A stretch of 40,920 nt of DNA from an uncultured Oscillibacter sp. Lineage in GTDB: Bacteria > Bacillota > Clostridia > Oscillospirales > Oscillospiraceae. A program made the position numbers and the translations under genes. Positions 30,803-39,817 of this stretch are shown here, piece after piece. The number at the start of each line of letters is the position of its first letter. Position 1 is the stretch's first letter. The stretch lies in assembly GCA_947644365.1 (NCBI GenBank), contig CANRYZ010000010.1:1-40920 (forward strand), in the 5' to 3' direction. A model generated the notes under the pieces. The model worked only from the letters and a program-made list of their open reading frames with translations. It was not told the origin of the DNA and ran no database searches.

Positions 30803-30836
30803 GCAAATATCAATTGAACATCATCAAGGCGTTGAT

Positions 30837-31096
30837 GGAGAAAAGTACCGCGGACGTTCCGGGCCAGTGAGCGGGGGATGGTGGAAACCCCGTACCAAAG
30901 AATCCGCGTGAAGAACACTCCGGAGCCGCAATCTGAACGCGGAGGTTCCGCCAGTAAGTGCGACGGGCTGTGACCGTTACATCACACGGGCTTGTTGGAG
31001 CCTTGAGAGGTGGCGTCCCATTGGGAGGCAAATTAGGTGGCACCGCGGATAGCAGCTATTCGTCCTAAAATTTTTAGGATGTAGCTGCGTTTTTTT
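30837..31096 (+). promoter_or_regulatory. T-box riboswitch, probable Asn specificity
   Basis: Stem I holds AGTA (30844-30847) opposite GAAGAAC (30911-30916 region), the loop-E type specifier loop; the apparent specifier codon is AAC (Asn) at 30914-30916. The T-box sequence AGGTGGCACCGCGG is at 31035-31048. Its UGGC bulge would pair with a tRNA ending GCCA, as expected for a G73 discriminator such as that of tRNA-Asn. The terminator is GCAGCTA/TAGCTGC (31052-31058 with 31082-31088) enclosing TCCTAAAA/TTTTAGGA, with T run 31090-31096. Uncharged tRNA-Asn should stabilise the antiterminator and turn on asnB and glnN. Asp (GAC) is the main alternative, but the downstream genes favour Asn. Confidence 0.9.
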
Positions 31097-31187: not shown

Positions 31188-32774
31188 ATGTGTACGATCA
31201 TGGGATTCTCTCAAAAGACGCTGACCCGGCAGGAGATCGCCCCTTTCCTGGACCGCACCGCCTCCCGGGGCCCGGATATGAGCCGGATCGCGGAGACCCC
31301 CTCCGGCTGGCTCTGCTTCCAGCGCCTGGCCATCATGGGTCTTACGGAGGCGGGGATGCAGCCCTTCTCCCTGGACGGGGACATGGTGGTTTGCAACGGC
31401 GAAATCTACGGCTTCCGCCCCCTGAAGCGGCAGCTGGAGGAAAAGGGCTACCAATTCCAAAGCGGCAGCGACTGCGAGGTTCTGCTCCCCCTGTTCCACG
31501 AGTACGGGCTGGGGATGTTCTCCCGGCTGGACGCGGAGTTCGCCCTGGTGATCTACGACGCCGGCACCGATTCCCTCATCGCCGCCCGGGACCCCATCGG
31601 CATCCGTCCCCTGTTCTACGGGTATGACCGGGCCGGGGCCATCGTCTTTGCCAGCGAGGCCAAGAACCTGGTGGGGCTGTGCGGCGACATCCGCCCCTTC
31701 CCCCCGGGCCACTACTACGCCTACGGCAAGTTCGTCCGCTACGCCGACCTCACCACCGTCCGGGAATACTGCCATGACGGCCTGGAGACGGTGTGCCGGG
31801 GCATCCGGAACAGGCTCATCGCCGCCGTGGACAAACGGCTGGACGCCGACGCCCCGGTGGGCTTCCTCCTCTCCGGCGGGCTGGACTCCTCCCTGGTGTG
31901 CGCCATCAGCTCTATCGTGCTGGGGAAGAAGATCCGCACCTTCGCCATCGGCATGGACACCGACGCCATCGATCTGAAATATGCCCGGGAGACCGCCGAT
32001 TTCATCGGCGCCGACCACACGGAGGTCATCATGACCCGGCAGCAGGTGCTCAGCTCCCTGGACGGCCTCATCGCCCTCCTGGGCACCTGGGACATCACCA
32101 CTATCCGGGCCAGCATGGGCATGTACCTTTGCTGCAAGGCCATCCACGAGCAAACGGATATCCGGGTGATCCTCACCGGCGAGATCAGCGACGAGCTCTT
32201 CGGCTACAAATACACCGACTTCGCCCCCGACGCCGAGGCCTTCCAGGCCGAGACCAAGAAGCGGGTGGACGAGATCTATATGTACGACGTTCTGCGGGCG
32301 GACCGCAGCATCTCCGTCAACTCCCTGGAGGCCCGGGTGCCCTTCGGCGACCTGGACTTTGTGAAGTACGTCATGGCCATCGACCCGGAGATGAAGATGA
32401 ACACCTACCACATGGGCAAGTACCTGCTGCGCCACGCCTTCGAGAAGGACTGCCTTCTGCCGGAGCACATCCTCTGGCGCCAGAAGGCCGCCTTCTCCGA
32501 CGCCGTGGGCCACTCCATGGTGGACGACCTCAAGGCCTACGCGGAGGAGACTTACACCGACGCGGAGTTTGAGACGGCGCGGCACAAATACGATTACCAC
32601 TGTCCGCCCTTTACCAAGGAGAGCCTTCTGTACCGGGAGATCTTCGAGCGGCACTACCCCGGCCAGGCAAAAATGATCAAGGACTTCTGGATGCCCAACA
32701 GGTCCTGGGAGGGCTGCGACGTAGACGACCCCTCGGCCCGGGCCCTCAGCAACTACGGGGCCAGCGGGGATTGA
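31188..32774 (+). CDS. asnB: Asparagine synthase, glutamine-hydrolysing (class B)
   Basis: 528 residues from ATG 31188 (TTGGAGG upstream). The protein begins M-C, so Cys2 is the class II glutaminase nucleophile after Met removal; the glutaminase domain runs to ~190 (NGEIYG near 66). The synthetase domain has the pyrophosphate loop FLLSGGLDSS (~226-235) and SLEARVPFGDLDF (~378). It makes asparagine from aspartate, ATP and glutamine amide nitrogen. Length matches the bacterial AsnB type. It is preceded by an Asn-type T-box and followed after 57 bases by glutamine synthetase, which supplies its amide donor. Confidence 0.95.
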   Translation: MCTIMGFSQKTLTRQEIAPFLDRTASRGPDMSRIAETPSGWLCFQRLAIMGLTEAGMQPFSLDGDMVVCNGEIYGFRPLKRQLEEKGYQFQSGSDCEVLLPLFHEYGLGMFSRLDAEFALVIYDAGTDSLIAARDPIGIRPLFYGYDRAGAIVFASEAKNLVGLCGDIRPFPPGHYYAYGKFVRYADLTTVREYCHDGLETVCRGIRNRLIAAVDKRLDADAPVGFLLSGGLDSSLVCAISSIVLGKKIRTFAIGMDTDAIDLKYARETADFIGADHTEVIMTRQQVLSSLDGLIALLGTWDITTIRASMGMYLCCKAIHEQTDIRVILTGEISDELFGYKYTDFAPDAEAFQAETKKRVDEIYMYDVLRADRSISVNSLEARVPFGDLDFVKYVMAIDPEMKMNTYHMGKYLLRHAFEKDCLLPEHILWRQKAAFSDAVGHSMVDDLKAYAEETYTDAEFETARHKYDYHCPPFTKESLLYREIFERHYPGQAKMIKDFWMPNRSWEGCDVDDPSARALSNYGASGD

Positions 32775-35040: not shown

Positions 35041-35069
35041 TTGCGTCCTCCGGCGCCCTGTGGTATACT
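35041..35069 (+). promoter_or_regulatory. Promoter of the phospholipase C-like gene
   Basis: TTGCGT (35041-35046), 17 bp, TATACT (35064-35069), 38 bases before the GTG start. Confidence 0.68.
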
Positions 35070-35106
35070 GATACCCGCTGAAATCCAAAAACCGGAGGTG
35101 CCCGCG

Positions 35107-35655
35107 GTGAAAAAGCGCAGCCACAAGCTCCTGGCCTCCACCCTGCTGGAGTGCGAACACGGATTCCAGGCCCGGCGGTACGAGTGGGCCTTTCTCTTCG
35201 GCTCCTTCCAGCCGGACTGCAATCCCCTGACCTACCTCAAGGGCTCCCTGCGGGCCTACAAATTCCGGGGTCACAACTTCTCCAACTCCCAGGCCTACAT
35301 AAACAGCCATATCCTGCGGCTCCAGCGGCGGGCCCGCTGGAACATCTGGCAGTATTACACCCTGGGCAAGCTGACCCACTACCTGGCCGACGCCTTCACC
35401 TTCCCCCACAACGAAAACTACCCCGACAGCCTCATCGCCCACCGGGAGTACGAGGACGCCCTGCGGGTATATCTGGCGGAGTACCTCCAAAACCGCACTC
35501 TGCGGCTGGAGCAGGACCGCCGGGACCTGACCCTGGCCATTGACGAGCTACACCGCCGGTACATGGAGACCCAGGCGGACGTGGACCAGGACGCCCGGTT
35601 CATCCTGGAGGCCAACCTGCTCCTGATGTCGGGATGCCTGCCGGTCCCCGCCTGA
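35107..35655 (+). CDS. Zinc-dependent phospholipase C family protein
   Basis: 182 residues from GTG 35107, chosen because GGAGGTG lies upstream and the promoter -10 box is only 38 bases away. The central GKLTHYLADAFTFPHNE motif (about 86-102: H-x3-D ... H-x-x-E) and the upstream HNFSNSQAYINSH give the metal ligands of the zinc-dependent phospholipase C/S1-P1 nuclease fold. There is no signal peptide, unlike secreted clostridial α-toxins, so this is one of the small cytoplasmic members of unknown substrate. It is a single gene with its own promoter; no clear terminator follows. Confidence 0.82.
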   Translation: MKKRSHKLLASTLLECEHGFQARRYEWAFLFGSFQPDCNPLTYLKGSLRAYKFRGHNFSNSQAYINSHILRLQRRARWNIWQYYTLGKLTHYLADAFTFPHNENYPDSLIAHREYEDALRVYLAEYLQNRTLRLEQDRRDLTLAIDELHRRYMETQADVDQDARFILEANLLLMSGCLPVPA

Positions 35656-35715: not shown

Positions 35716-35744
35716 TTTTCATTTTCCCGCCATCGTGTTATTCT
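35716..35744 (+). promoter_or_regulatory. Possible promoter of the aroF leader
   Basis: TTTTCA (35716-35721), 17 bp, TATTCT (35739-35744), just before the leader-peptide gene. The match to consensus is weak; an overlapping TTGTCA at 35709 has poor spacing. Confidence 0.42.
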
Positions 35745-35779
35745 TTTTACATATTCCAGAACCGAAAGGGACATCCGAC

Positions 35780-35878
35780 ATGATCAACCTCACCCGCAGC
35801 GCTGAATACCGCTACTTTAGCTTTACCTATTTTTATGGTAAGGCTTATTTGGGTTTGGCTGAAAGCGTGCGCGTGTAA
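35780..35878 (+). CDS. Tyr/Phe-rich leader peptide, 32 aa
   Basis: ATG 35780 with GAAAGGGA upstream; stop TAA 35876-35878. Residues 9-23 read EYRYFSFTYFYGKAY: five Tyr and three Phe in a 14-residue stretch (10-23), far above chance. The peptide precedes a strong terminator (35913-35942) that lies just in front of aroF, the first enzyme of aromatic synthesis. This is the arrangement of ribosome-mediated transcription attenuation: shortage of charged tRNA-Tyr or tRNA-Phe would stall translation and prevent termination. The aromatic codons 17-19 fall in the loop of a hairpin (35819-35827 with 35837-35845). I recognise no named homologue. Confidence 0.8.
   Translation: MINLTRSAEYRYFSFTYFYGKAYLGLAESVRV
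35819..35845 (+). promoter_or_regulatory. Hairpin within the leader peptide gene
   Basis: AGCTTTACC (35819-35827) pairs with GGTAAGGCT (35837-35845; one G-U) around a loop holding the TAT-TTT-TAT codons. A ribosome stalled on the Tyr/Phe codons would open it, so it is a good candidate for the 1:2 pause hairpin. Confidence 0.6.
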
Positions 35879-35912
35879 CCTTTGGTTTTGTTGGAACCAT
35901 TCGTACATGATG

Positions 35913-35942
35913 ACCCGCGGCCGAACCGGCCGCGGGTTTTTT
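35913..35942 (+). terminator. Attenuator terminator in front of aroF
   Basis: Perfect 11-bp stem ACCCGCGGCCG (35913-35923) with 35927-35937, loop AAC, T run 35937-35942. It lies after the leader-peptide stop and 32 bases before aroF, so it must be bypassed for aroF expression from the upstream promoter. Confidence 0.92.
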
Positions 35943-35973
35943 GTACCACTCTAAACATCAGGAGGATCACGCC

Positions 35974-36981
35974 ATGATTGTCATTCTGAAACACGACCCC
36001 AACCGCGAACAGCTGGAGAGCCTCATCAACTGGCTCCAGGAGAAGGGCATCGCCATCCACACCAGCATCGGCGAGGCGCACACCATCCTGGGCCTGGTGG
36101 GCGACACGTCCAAGCTGGACATCGACCTCATCGCCGCCCTGGACATCGTGGAGGACGTCAAGCGCGTCCAGGAGCCCTATAAGAACGCCAACCGGAAATT
36201 TCACCCGGAGGATACCATCATCCCCGTGGGCAACACCCAGATCGGCGGCGGCACCCTGACCATCATGGCCGGTCCCTGCTCCGTGGAGAGCGAGGAGCAG
36301 GTGGTGGCCATCGCCAAGGCGGTGAAGGCCAGCGGCGCCACCATGCTCCGGGGCGGCGCCTTCAAGCCCCGCACCTCTCCCTACGCCTTCCAGGGTCTTG
36401 GTGCCCGGGGACTGGAGTACCTGAAAATCGCCCGGCAGGAGACGGGCCTGCCCATCGTCACCGAGCTGATGGACCTGAGCCAGCTGCCCCTTTTCAAGGA
36501 TGTGGACGTGATCCAGATCGGCGCGCGGAATATGCAGAATTTTGACCTCTTAAAGGCCGTGGGCCACCAGGACCGGCCCGTGATGATCAAGCGGGGCATG
36601 TCCGCCACCTATGAGGAATGGCTCATGAGCGCCGAGTACGTCATGTCCGGCGGCAACGAAAACGTGATCCTCTGCGAGCGGGGCATCCGCACCTTTGAGC
36701 ACTACACCCGCAACACCCTGGACCTGGCGGCCATCCCCGTGCTGCGGCGGCTGACCCACCTGCCCGTCATCATCGACCCCAGCCACGCCACCGGAAAGAA
36801 CTGGCTGGTGGAACCCATGGCCATGGGCGCCGTGGCCACCGGGGCCGACGGCCTCCAGATCGAGGTCCACAACGACCCCGCCCACGCCCTGTGCGACGGT
36901 CCCCAGTCCCTCAAGCCAGAGGATTTCGATCCCCTGGCAAAGAAGCTGCTGGCCCTCCACGAGGCGGTGAAGAAACTGTAA
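35974..36981 (+). CDS. aroF: 3-deoxy-7-phosphoheptulonate (DAHP) synthase
   Basis: 335 residues from ATG 35974 with AGGAGGATC upstream. An N-terminal ferredoxin-like regulatory domain (1-~70) precedes the TIM barrel with IMAGPCSVESEEQ (~95), LRGGAFKPRTSPYAFQG (~125), PVMIKRGMSATYEEW (~205) and the C-terminal IIDPSHATGKNWLVEPMA. This is the type Iβ DAHP synthase form; the N-terminal domain usually binds Tyr or Phe as feedback inhibitor. It condenses PEP with erythrose 4-phosphate. Controlled by the Tyr/Phe leader and attenuator just upstream, and followed after 112 bases by tyrA. Confidence 0.95.
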   Translation: MIVILKHDPNREQLESLINWLQEKGIAIHTSIGEAHTILGLVGDTSKLDIDLIAALDIVEDVKRVQEPYKNANRKFHPEDTIIPVGNTQIGGGTLTIMAGPCSVESEEQVVAIAKAVKASGATMLRGGAFKPRTSPYAFQGLGARGLEYLKIARQETGLPIVTELMDLSQLPLFKDVDVIQIGARNMQNFDLLKAVGHQDRPVMIKRGMSATYEEWLMSAEYVMSGGNENVILCERGIRTFEHYTRNTLDLAAIPVLRRLTHLPVIIDPSHATGKNWLVEPMAMGAVATGADGLQIEVHNDPAHALCDGPQSLKPEDFDPLAKKLLALHEAVKKL

Positions 36982-37093: not shown

Positions 37094-37930
37094 ATGAATG
37101 TTGGTATTGTGGGCCTGGGCCTCATCGGTGGCTCCATGGCCAAGAGCATCAAGGCCCGCACGGGCCACACCGTCTTCGGCGCCGATCTGGATGCCGAGAC
37201 CATGACCCTGGCCCGGATGTGCGGGGCCATCGACGCTCCCCTGACGGAGGACAACCTGCCCCTGTGCGATTTGGTCCTGATCGCCATCCGCCCCGGCGCG
37301 GCGGTGGAGTGGGTCCGCGCCCACGGGGCGCAGATCGCCAAGACCGCCATCGTGGTGGATCTGTGCGGCGTAAAGCGGGTGGTGGTGGAGGCCATCGCCC
37401 CTCTGGCGGAGCAGCACGGCTTCGCCTACATCGGCGGGCACCCCATGGCCGGCCGGGAGCGGGGCGGCTTTACCGCCTCCAGCGAGGACCTGTACGCGGG
37501 GGCCTCCATGATCCTCACGCCGGACAAACGGACAGACATGAAGCTGCTGGAGACCCTCCAGGCCTTCTTCCTGGACCTGGGCTTTGCCGGGCTCACCTTC
37601 TCCCAGCCGGAGGAGCACGACCGGATCATCGCCTTCACCTCCCAGCTGGCCCACATCGTCTCCAGCGCCTATGTCAAGTCGCCGGAGGCCCAGCGGCGGC
37701 GGGGCTTCTCCGCCGGGAGCTTCCAGGACATGACCCGGGTGGCCCGGCTGGACGAGGATATGTGGACGGAGCTGTTTCTGGACGACGCCGATTACCTTGT
37801 CAAGGAGCTGGATATTCTCATCCGTCATCTGACGGATTACTCCGAGGCGCTGACGGCCCGCGACGAGGAGAGGGTGAGGGCCCTCTTGAAAGAGGGCCGG
37901 GAGTTGAAGGCTGCCGCCGGGGGGAATTGA
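37094..37930 (+). CDS. tyrA: Prephenate dehydrogenase
   Basis: 278 residues from ATG 37094 (AAAGG upstream); an in-frame ATG at 37076 has no such signal. It has an N-terminal Rossmann NAD(P) loop GLGLIGGSMAKS, the PDH motif GGHPMAGRERGGF (about 115-127) and an all-helical C-terminal part with HDRIIAFTSQLAHIVSSA (~177). There is no C-terminal ACT domain and no chorismate mutase fusion. It converts prephenate to 4-hydroxyphenylpyruvate for tyrosine; arogenate use cannot be excluded. It lies between aroF and a long repeat-filled gap before aroB. Confidence 0.93.
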   Translation: MNVGIVGLGLIGGSMAKSIKARTGHTVFGADLDAETMTLARMCGAIDAPLTEDNLPLCDLVLIAIRPGAAVEWVRAHGAQIAKTAIVVDLCGVKRVVVEAIAPLAEQHGFAYIGGHPMAGRERGGFTASSEDLYAGASMILTPDKRTDMKLLETLQAFFLDLGFAGLTFSQPEEHDRIIAFTSQLAHIVSSAYVKSPEAQRRRGFSAGSFQDMTRVARLDEDMWTELFLDDADYLVKELDILIRHLTDYSEALTARDEERVRALLKEGRELKAAAGGN

Positions 37931-38005: not shown

Positions 38006-38565
38006 GCTGGGCAGATGCACCCCCCATTTCTCTTTTCTCTGTCTTGCCAGAGAAAAGAGAAACGGGCCGTGCACGGTCCAAAGAGAAAAGAGAACGCCGG
38101 GCACGAATTTGACCGCGAGGGTCAAATTGTGCCCAAAGTACGGGGGCTGGCCTGAATCGGTGCCAATGTGAATTGCCACCCCTCTACCGGCTGCGTCTGA
38201 CAGCGTACTTTGCGGGGGGCGCTCTGCCGCATTTGCAAGTACCTCAGAGGGTGTTTTGCTGCTTTGACGCATCGTCCCCAGCTTCTCTTCCCGCGCTTCG
38301 CGCCTGGTCTGGCACGTTTGGGCAGGCCTGCCCTTCTACCGCCGGTAGACGAACCCTCTTCCCCGCACGGAGCCAGCCAGGCGCGAAGCGCGGGAAGAGA
38401 AGAACGTCTATGCGTCCACGCAGCAGGTTTCCTGCGCGCCCTTCCATCGAAGCGTGAGGCTCCCGCGACCTCCAAAAGCGCCTCTCTTTTCTCTTCCACC
38501 GTGCACGGCGCATTCTCTTTTCTCTGGCAAGACAGAGAAAAGAGAATGGGGGGTGCATTCCCAGC
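38006..38565. repeat. 560-bp element of nested inverted repeats
   Basis: Outer arms 38006-38098 and 38478-38565 are inverted copies (about 85-90 bp, nearly identical over TGCACCCCCC to the second AAGAGAAAAGAGA block, with a 1-base indel). Each arm contains its own perfect 14-bp hairpin (left: 38028-38041 with 38048-38061) and the palindrome CCGTGCACGG. Between the arms: a 15-bp hairpin with one bulge (38099-38114 with 38120-38134); CAAAGTACG/CGTACTTTG (38134-38142 with 38204-38212); and a perfect 26-bp pair (38282-38307 with 38377-38402) enclosing GGGCAGGCCTGCCC and TCTACC/GGTAGA. No credible gene lies inside. It could be a non-autonomous mobile or dispersed repeat, or a large structured RNA. 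Confidence 0.85.
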
Positions 38566-38732
38566 ACGGGCAAAGCCCGTGCGCCGTCCCGCGCCCGAGG
38601 CGCGACGCCCCTCGTCCCCGGCCCGTGGCCGGTTTCCCCCGTCCCCGCCCGCGGCGGGAAACCCCCCGTCCCGCCCCCGTGGGGCGGATTCCGTAAGGAA
38701 TAACAAAATCCCCGTCCCCCTGCCAGGGGGAC
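38564..38732. repeat. GC-rich hairpin cluster in front of aroB
   Basis: Three more perfect 8-bp stems: GCACGGGC/GCCCGTGC (38564-38571 with 38575-38582), GGTTTCCC/GGGAAACC (38631-38638 with 38656-38663) and GTCCCCCT/AGGGGGAC (38714-38721 with 38725-38732). The last ends 17 bases before the aroB ATG and could limit access to the ribosome binding site. I see no gene or clear promoter in 38564-38749. Confidence 0.65.
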
Positions 38733-38749
38733 CCCCAAGGAGGCCCTCT

Positions 38750-39817
38750 ATGTCTGATTGCAAAATCATACAAGTAAACACCTCTCCCGCCTATGCGGTG
38801 ACCATCGCCCCCGGCCTGCTGGCCGGCTGCGGCCCCCGCCTGCGGGAGCTTATGTCCCCCTGCCACATGGCGGTCGTCGCCGACAGCACCGTGGCTCCGC
38901 TGTATCTGGAGACGGTCCAAACCAGCCTGGAGGAGGCGGGCTTCACCGTCAGCACCTGCGTGTTCCCCGCCGGGGAGGCAAACAAGAATTTCACCACACT
39001 GGCGAAGATTCTGGAATTTCTGGCCGAGCGCCGCCTCACCCGCACGGACTGCGTGGCCGCCCTGGGCGGCGGCGTCACCGGGGACATGGCGGGCTTCGCC
39101 GCCGCCGTGTACCTGCGGGGCGTCCGGTATGTGCAGCTGCCCACCACCCTGCTCTCCGCCGTGGACTCTTCTGTGGGCGGCAAGACCGCCGTCGACCTGG
39201 CGGCGGGGAAAAATCTGGCCGGGGCCTTCCTCCAGCCCGCCGCCGTGCTGTGCGACACGGACTGCCTCTCCTCCCTGCCCAGGGACGTGTTCGCCGACGG
39301 AGCCGCGGAGGCCATCAAGACCGGCGTCTTATGCGACGAGAGCCTCTTCTCCCTCTTTGAGGACGGAACCCTCACCGCGGAGCCGGGGGCGGTCATCGCC
39401 CGGTGCGTGGCCTATAAGGCGGGCGTGGTAGAGCGGGATGAAAAAGAGCAGGGGGAGCGCAGGCTCCTGAACCTGGGCCACACTGTGGGCCACGCCATTG
39501 AAAAGTGCAGCGGATACGCCATCCCCCACGGCCACGCCGTGGCGGCGGGATTGGCGGTCATCGCCCGGGCCGCGGAGGCCCTGGGCTGGACGGAGGAGTC
39601 CGTCTCAAAGCGCATCTGCGCATGTCTCGCCCAAAACGGCCTGCCCACCGCCGCGGACTTCTCCCCGGAGGCCCTGGCGGAGGCCGCCTCCGCGGACAAG
39701 AAGCGCTCCGGCGGGGACATCACTCTGGTGGTCCCCAGGAGGATCGGTTTGTGCGAGCTGAAAAAAATGCCCGTCTCGGAGCTTCTGCCCGTGATTCGGG
39801 CGGGATTGGAGGGATAA
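38750..39817 (+). CDS. aroB: 3-dehydroquinate synthase
   Basis: 355 residues from ATG 38750 (AAGGAGG upstream); the same frame stays open far upstream into the repeat block, but without start signals. Family motifs: GGGVTGDMAGFAAAVYLRG (about 104-122, NAD binding), PTTLLSAVDSSVGGKTAV (about 128-145) and the zinc-ligand region NLGHTVGHAIE (~242) plus HGHAVAAG (~260). It closes DAHP to dehydroquinate with transient NAD oxidation, the second shikimate step. aroA starts 6 bases after its stop, so the two form an operon. Confidence 0.95.
   Translation: MSDCKIIQVNTSPAYAVTIAPGLLAGCGPRLRELMSPCHMAVVADSTVAPLYLETVQTSLEEAGFTVSTCVFPAGEANKNFTTLAKILEFLAERRLTRTDCVAALGGGVTGDMAGFAAAVYLRGVRYVQLPTTLLSAVDSSVGGKTAVDLAAGKNLAGAFLQPAAVLCDTDCLSSLPRDVFADGAAEAIKTGVLCDESLFSLFEDGTLTAEPGAVIARCVAYKAGVVERDEKEQGERRLLNLGHTVGHAIEKCSGYAIPHGHAVAAGLAVIARAAEALGWTEESVSKRICACLAQNGLPTAADFSPEALAEAASADKKRSGGDITLVVPRRIGLCELKKMPVSELLPVIRAGLEG

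Follow-up and report, generated by a model that had tools for sequence, protein, structure and literature searches.

The enterobacterial attenuators trpL, pheL, hisL and ilv combine a run of control codons with mutually exclusive antiterminator and terminator structures and with coupled translation. In the Firmicutes, genes for aromatic and branched-chain amino acids are usually regarded as controlled by T-boxes and protein regulators. Leader-peptide attenuators have also been reported in Firmicutes, among them the Leu-rich ilv-leu leader of Staphylococcus aureus (PMC5794164) and several His leaders (PMC2965389, PMC9413887), which share the mode of control with the locus analysed here but serve other amino acids and genes, and for which the consulted parts of these reports describe no shared scaffold. 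At aroF itself, a putative leader peptide with Phe-Tyr-Phe has been proposed as an attenuator in Corynebacterium glutamicum (PMC4046766); it resembles the present leader in being short, in lying at aroF and in its Phe-Tyr-Phe, but it belongs to an actinobacterium, three aromatic residues are named for it, and the comparison covers the peptide. Attenuation has also been proposed in Acholeplasma, where the uORFC-13-1 motif stands upstream of aroF (PMC8632094). Its uORF likewise contains one or more Phe codons and has a terminator next to it, but the motif is represented by 24 sequences from Acholeplasma and environmental sources only, and the part of its description on which our comparison relies mentions no antiterminator. 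A search of the open-access literature, with subscription literature outside its scope, returned no description of a clostridial aroF leader family; the attenuation mechanism is already known, and the clostridial family, its spread and its codon swaps appear to be new.

The locus under study lies in a stretch of 40,920 nucleotides from an uncultured Oscillibacter sp., hereafter the window, in which the initial annotation had proposed a Tyr/Phe leader-peptide attenuator controlling aroF. Analysis of the sequence supports this proposal through the ORF, its codon run, a covarying antiterminator and the terminator, and the leader is very probably a classical ribosome-mediated transcription attenuator sensing the charging of tRNA-Tyr and tRNA-Phe. 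The features of the locus are the following.

35716..35744, forward strand: candidate promoter (TTTTCA, 17 nt, TATTCT), with TATNCT conserved in place
35764..35770, forward strand: Shine-Dalgarno-like GAAAGGG of the leader, 9 nt 5' of its ATG
35780..35878, forward strand: leader peptide ORF, 32 codons, translated as MINLTRSAEYRYFSFTYFYGKAYLGLAESVRV
35807..35836, forward strand: predicted control codons Y10, Y12, F13, F15, Y17, F18 and Y19, from ribosome-mask folding
35819..35827, forward strand: left arm of hairpin A, AGCTTTACC
35837..35845, forward strand: right arm of hairpin A, GGTAAGGCT
35852..35861, forward strand: antiterminator left strand, GGTTTGGCTG, within the ORF
35913..35942, forward strand: intrinsic terminator, 11-bp stem, loop AAC and T6
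35918..35927, forward strand: antiterminator right strand, CGGCCGAACC, comprising part of the terminator left arm, the loop and the first right-arm base
35974..36981, forward strand: aroF, DAHP synthase (NCBIfam PRK08673, TIGR01361)
37094..37930, forward strand: tyrA-like prephenate dehydrogenase, best matches below curated cut-offs
38210..39817, forward strand: frame with aroB, 3-dehydroquinate synthase, the match starting at about residue 195

A short ORF with a start codon and a ribosome-binding site is thus found just 5' of the operon, and its codon run corresponds to the end product or products of that operon. Both the 32-codon frame with its ribosome-binding site and the eight Tyr or Phe residues previously read between residues 10 and 23 were recovered in the translation, the aromatic residues occupying positions 10, 12, 13, 15, 17, 18, 19 and 23 (8 of 14). 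Across 94 aroF-type leaders, Phe and Tyr make up 27.4% of residues in frame vs 5.9% and 15.3% in the other two frames, and both synonyms of each amino acid are used (TAT/TAC 189/179, TTT/TTC 392/99), while Trp accounts for 9 of 3063 residues. All 94 ORFs are preceded by a Shine-Dalgarno-like motif, which itself partly guided the choice of start, and 89 of the 94 begin with ATG under a start choice that favoured ATG and Shine-Dalgarno.

The hairpin noted earlier at the aromatic codons (35819-35845) was confirmed as a stem of 9 bp, one of them G-U, formed by 35819-35827 and 35837-35845 (hairpin A). F15 is encoded in its left arm and Y17-F18-Y19 in its loop, with Y10, Y12 and F13 just 5'. The letters of both arms are nearly invariant in the genus, exceeding what pairing needs, and this near-invariance possibly reflects a role in pausing or in a further pairing. 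The 11-bp terminator with T6 that had been placed shortly before the DAHP synthase start also stands, as a stem of 35913-35923 with 35927-35937 followed by T6 at 35937-35942, and it lies 5' of the first structural gene, with 31 nt left to the aroF ATG. A main aroF transcription start downstream of 35942 is unlikely, because these 31 nt also hold the aroF Shine-Dalgarno sequence (AGGAGG, 35960-35965). The leader region folded better than every one of 200 dinucleotide shuffles (z -6.15).

For the antiterminator, the initial annotation could draw nothing convincing and offered weak pairing of 35866-35876 with the terminator left arm; we replaced this candidate with 35852-35861, the conserved and covarying partner, which forms 10 pairs, two of them G-U, with 35918-35927. 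The pairing is fully Watson-Crick in some relatives, L026 being an example (GGTTTGGCTG with CAGCCAAACC). Because the right strand spans the terminator arm and loop, ACC at 35925-35927 shows little or no variation across the genus alignment. Complementarity and covariation both indicate that this structure and the terminator are mutually exclusive. The leader thereby shares with trpL, pheL, hisL and ilv a codon run, an antiterminator that excludes the terminator and a predicted coupling to translation. It differs from the enterobacterial attenuators in that its antiterminator strand lies inside the ORF and pairs with terminator arm and loop, and in having its control codons covered by a hairpin of their own. 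There is no overlap of hairpin A with 35852-35861, as there would be for a 1:2 protector sharing the antiterminator strand; the two structures have no strand in common, so the textbook 1:2 / 2:3 competition does not literally apply. In folding of the unbound RNA the antiterminator strand is hidden in the window, though not in every relative.

Covariation of the antiterminator was assessed with a swap test, in which the stretch 3' of hairpin A was paired with the terminator left arm and loop of its own leader or of other leaders. The test used 81 representatives of 98 hand-chosen loci; the choice took in 24 of at least 80 pattern-scan loci and left out the near-identical L073, L075 and L084 and four weak matches. 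Own duplexes averaged -15.2 vs -11.4 kcal/mol for swapped ones, own pairing was better than the swap mean in 75 of the 81 representatives, and none of 10,000 permutations gave a mean as low as that of the own duplexes. The same held for 17 divergent representatives (own -14.4 vs swapped -10.3 kcal/mol; 16 of 17 better, 0 of 10,000 permutations), and in the strictest set own pairing was better in 8 of 10. L080, whose terminator was truncated in this test, counts against the result, and the window's own pairing is by itself unexceptional, being equalled by 40% of swaps. Two-sided changes were found at 6 of 9 hairpin A pairs and at all 9 modelled terminator pairs in alignment A4, which holds 88 of the 98 loci (ten were dropped, mostly close relatives, and L080) and was fitted to the model, favouring covariation.

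These elements are consistent with the following sequence of events. RNA polymerase would start near 35750, and a ribosome following it would translate the leader. Under shortage of Tyr or Phe this ribosome would stall at one of Y10-Y19 with its leading edge short of 35852, leaving 35852-35861 to pair with the emerging 35918-35927; the antiterminator would then occupy the left arm and loop of the terminator, and transcription would continue into aroF, tyrA and aroB. When Tyr and Phe are ample, the ribosome would pass codon 23 and cover 35852-35861, and the terminator would form. Hairpin A is probably a pause or timing hairpin.

Folding of the window's RNA ahead of the ribosome only kept 9.4-9.5 of the 10 antiterminator pairs for stalls at Y10-Y19 and none at any tested position from codon 23 onwards, placing the switch between codons 19 and 23, the low value at the stop codon being partly a product of construction. 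When the RNA behind the ribosome was also allowed to pair, the effect weakened in the window, where the pairs retained numbered 9.3 for a stall at codon 10, 2.1 for codon 12, 0-0.1 for codons 13-17, 5.7 for codon 18 and 2.0 for codon 19. Ribosome-mask folding of 94 leaders, including those at tyrA and at the ligase gene described below, gave expected pair numbers of 9.1 for stalled ribosomes, 3.1 for a ribosome on the stop codon and 4.9 for free RNA. Stalls at Phe or Tyr codons raised antiterminator pairing above the stop position in 85 of the 94 leaders and above free RNA in 83; the window itself averaged 1.7 pairs over stalls vs 0.01 at the stop.

A consensus promoter scan made no call at 35716..35744, where the candidate promoter is suggested by a TATNCT hexamer found at this site in 26 of 28 genus-level loci (16 TATGCT, 6 TATTCT, 3 TATCCT and 1 TATACT). 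From its position, the tyrA-like gene would belong to the same operon as aroF. The gene 5' of the leader (35041-35655) has a Pfam Zn_dep_PLPC match.

Within the genus, the query was matched in 30 of 36 other genomes, and leader, hairpin and terminator stand together beside aroF in 27 of these 30. Genome G009 carries a divergent leader, the leader was not seen within the 200 nt examined in G019, and G030 has aroF with no such leader upstream, which counts against the attenuator reading. Within the aligned core of the leader, lengths differ by multiples of three and the aromatic run is kept. The start codon, Tyr/Phe run and covarying stems that had been predicted to be conserved all recur in relatives, and loss of the frame, which had been named as grounds for abandoning the proposal, is confined to G030 and G019 among the 30 matching genomes. 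In genus g92 (L072, L078, L081 and L083) the frame is shifted, with a stop codon in the GGTAAGG of the hairpin right arm; the GKA residues are gone and the aromatic run is kept. The antiterminator strand of the g92 leaders falls outside the ORF, as it does in trpL.

To survey the order, a covariance model (R1) was built from 27 sequences, and it matched 53 sites, spread over 52 of 394 genomes, the window's own included. Of these matches, 46 lie before aroF, two before prephenate dehydrogenase in one genus and one before acetolactate synthase; the other four (L086, L088, L089 and L090) are weak and have no gene assigned to them. The aromatic run and hairpin A recur across the order. A pattern scan of named genomes yielded at least 80 loci, with aroF at most 600 nt away in 65 of the 80 listed; among the 15 listed loci lacking a nearby aroF, L151 was kept and 14, five of which were inspected, were taken as chance. 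Because the pattern loci were selected by exact hairpin letters, the constancy of the hairpin is inflated. A second covariance model (R2) found matches in 47 of 391 class genomes and 22 of 299 phylum genomes, and aroF follows 17 of the 28 best-scoring class loci and 8 of the 9 phylum loci, with seven class loci and one phylum locus left without interpretation. The gene-neighbour check for pattern, class and phylum loci consisted of proximity to aroF only. Locus L117, in a MAG labelled Fretibacterium, carries the leader together with an aroF that shares 71% identity with the window's gene, by mis-binning or transfer.

Such a leader had been expected to be uncommon in clostridia, an expectation that needs revising. 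A strict finder (ATG ORF, Shine-Dalgarno-like motif and at least 6 Phe or Tyr in 12 residues) fired at 18 of 30 aroF loci of the order, these being the loci returned of 51 matches and including some mutually close relatives, vs 1 of 93 control loci (ilvB 1/29, leuA 0/22, hisG 0/30, trpE 0/12). The controls comprised 29 of 30 ilvB, 22 of 23 leuA and 12 of 13 trpE loci, leaving out L276, L300 and L373, and the upstream stretch was approximate for minus-strand loci near contig ends.

Leaders with other codons were found before other genes. Tyr-rich, model-matched leaders precede tyrA at L082 and L087, in one genus. A Phe-only leader (7 Phe, no Tyr) precedes a phenylacetate-CoA-ligase-like gene with an ACT-domain neighbour at L151, and a second, weaker Phe-rich leader lies at such a gene at L222; the ligase matches fall under the curated cut-off, and these genes perhaps represent a route from phenylacetate to Phe. 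Val/Ile-rich leaders precede ilvB at L085 and, in one genus, at L220 and L234, and the class search found a Leu-rich leader before leuA at L216. Leaders rich in Ile, Leu or Val occur at 5 of 29 ilvB loci of the order vs 0 of 94 loci of other genes. One of the five, L273, lies 5' of ilvB in the window's own genome (G000:C8). Its ORF is rich in Ile, Val and Leu and has an in-frame ATG preceded by GGAGGAGG; a terminator-like stem carrying a T run is also present, and the sequence makes L273 a possible second attenuator in that genome.

When run on 81 ilvB, leuA and pheA loci, R2 matched ilvB leaders only at L248, L254 and L271, weakly (E <= 0.0015); its remaining matches were L302, an aroF leader, and a duplicate of the L271 site. 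No R2 match was obtained for the ilvB leaders L273, which has no Rfam match either, L253 or L255, the latter two identified from codon content alone. With R2 weak at three ilvB loci and absent at L273, the ilvB leaders may share ancestry with the aroF leaders or may have converged on them. Trp-rich leaders were absent at 12 of 13 trpE loci, where one ORF with 3 Trp in 10 residues had no Shine-Dalgarno motif; a survey of 30 hisG loci found no His-rich leaders, the three ORFs that reach 3 His in 10 residues being ascribed to chance; and no convincing Leu-rich leader was seen at 22 of 23 leuA loci of the order. We give even chances to the joint reading that these leaders are a single ancestral clostridial chassis, namely control codons in and before a conserved hairpin followed by an antiterminator strand complementary to terminator arm and loop, in which codons have been swapped (Phe and Tyr at aroF, Tyr at tyrA, Phe at the ligase gene, branched-chain at ilvB, Leu at leuA), and that this chassis has spread through the order and beyond, taking the place of T-boxes at aroF and ilvB.

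Other explanations of the aroF leader were weighed against the same data. In arrest-peptide leaders of the TnaC and SecM type the peptide is expected to be conserved independently of the RNA. TnaC arrests the ribosome through its nascent peptide together with Trp (PMC8429421), and a similar arrest acting in the exit tunnel, for which free Tyr or Phe might serve as cofactor, would fit the strong conservation in the genus of the peptide AEYRYFSFTYFxGKAYFGLAES, residues beyond the aromatic run included. We regard it as very unlikely, however, since the conserved residues that follow the run are the ones for which hairpin A and the antiterminator strand code, and distant leaders, chosen by a Phe/Tyr filter, share aromatic content and little else; the g92 leaders, in which the frame has moved and GKA is lost yet the aromatic run is kept, argue against peptide arrest and against conservation of the peptide independently of the RNA. 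A metabolite-binding riboswitch for Phe, Tyr or a shikimate-pathway compound, with the ORF incidental, could account for a hairpin A more constant than its pairing requires, but is still harder to credit and highly improbable: the loci scanned gave no Rfam match, the codon run is kept in frame and by synonymous change, and codon identity tracks the target gene elsewhere. That leader and terminator are conserved yet constitutive and sense no amino acid is extremely improbable, as the covariation of the antiterminator and the pathway-matched codons of other leaders would be hard to explain.

T-box or TRAP-type control, which the initial annotation had given as the expectation for aromatic genes in Firmicutes, has the faintest chance of all, even though T-boxes occur in the window and elsewhere in the order. 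One, at 30823-31070, lies before an asnB-like gene (31188-32774) of the window, placing a T-box and the aroF leader in one genome; others precede aroF in L356 (1 of 20 aroF loci scanned), where the strict finder sees no leader, and were found at 2 of 10 trpE loci and at 5 of 14 Rfam-scanned ilvB loci, none of those five leader-bearing. The T-box covariance model that detected the asnB-like element gave no match at the aroF leader, where the conserved elements are instead the in-frame codon run and the antiterminator. A T-box or other Rfam family at the leader was rejected, as Rfam 15 gave no gathering-score match there in the window and eight relative loci.

Translation-coupled attenuation by a Tyr/Phe leader peptide thus remains the preferred reading of the aroF locus, and R2 provides a covariance model that finds such leaders in unannotated genomes. 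Leaders with other codons before other pathways, recognised by the same covariance models, amount to a natural codon-swap experiment, and how lineages exchange T-boxes for translation-coupled attenuators becomes directly testable.
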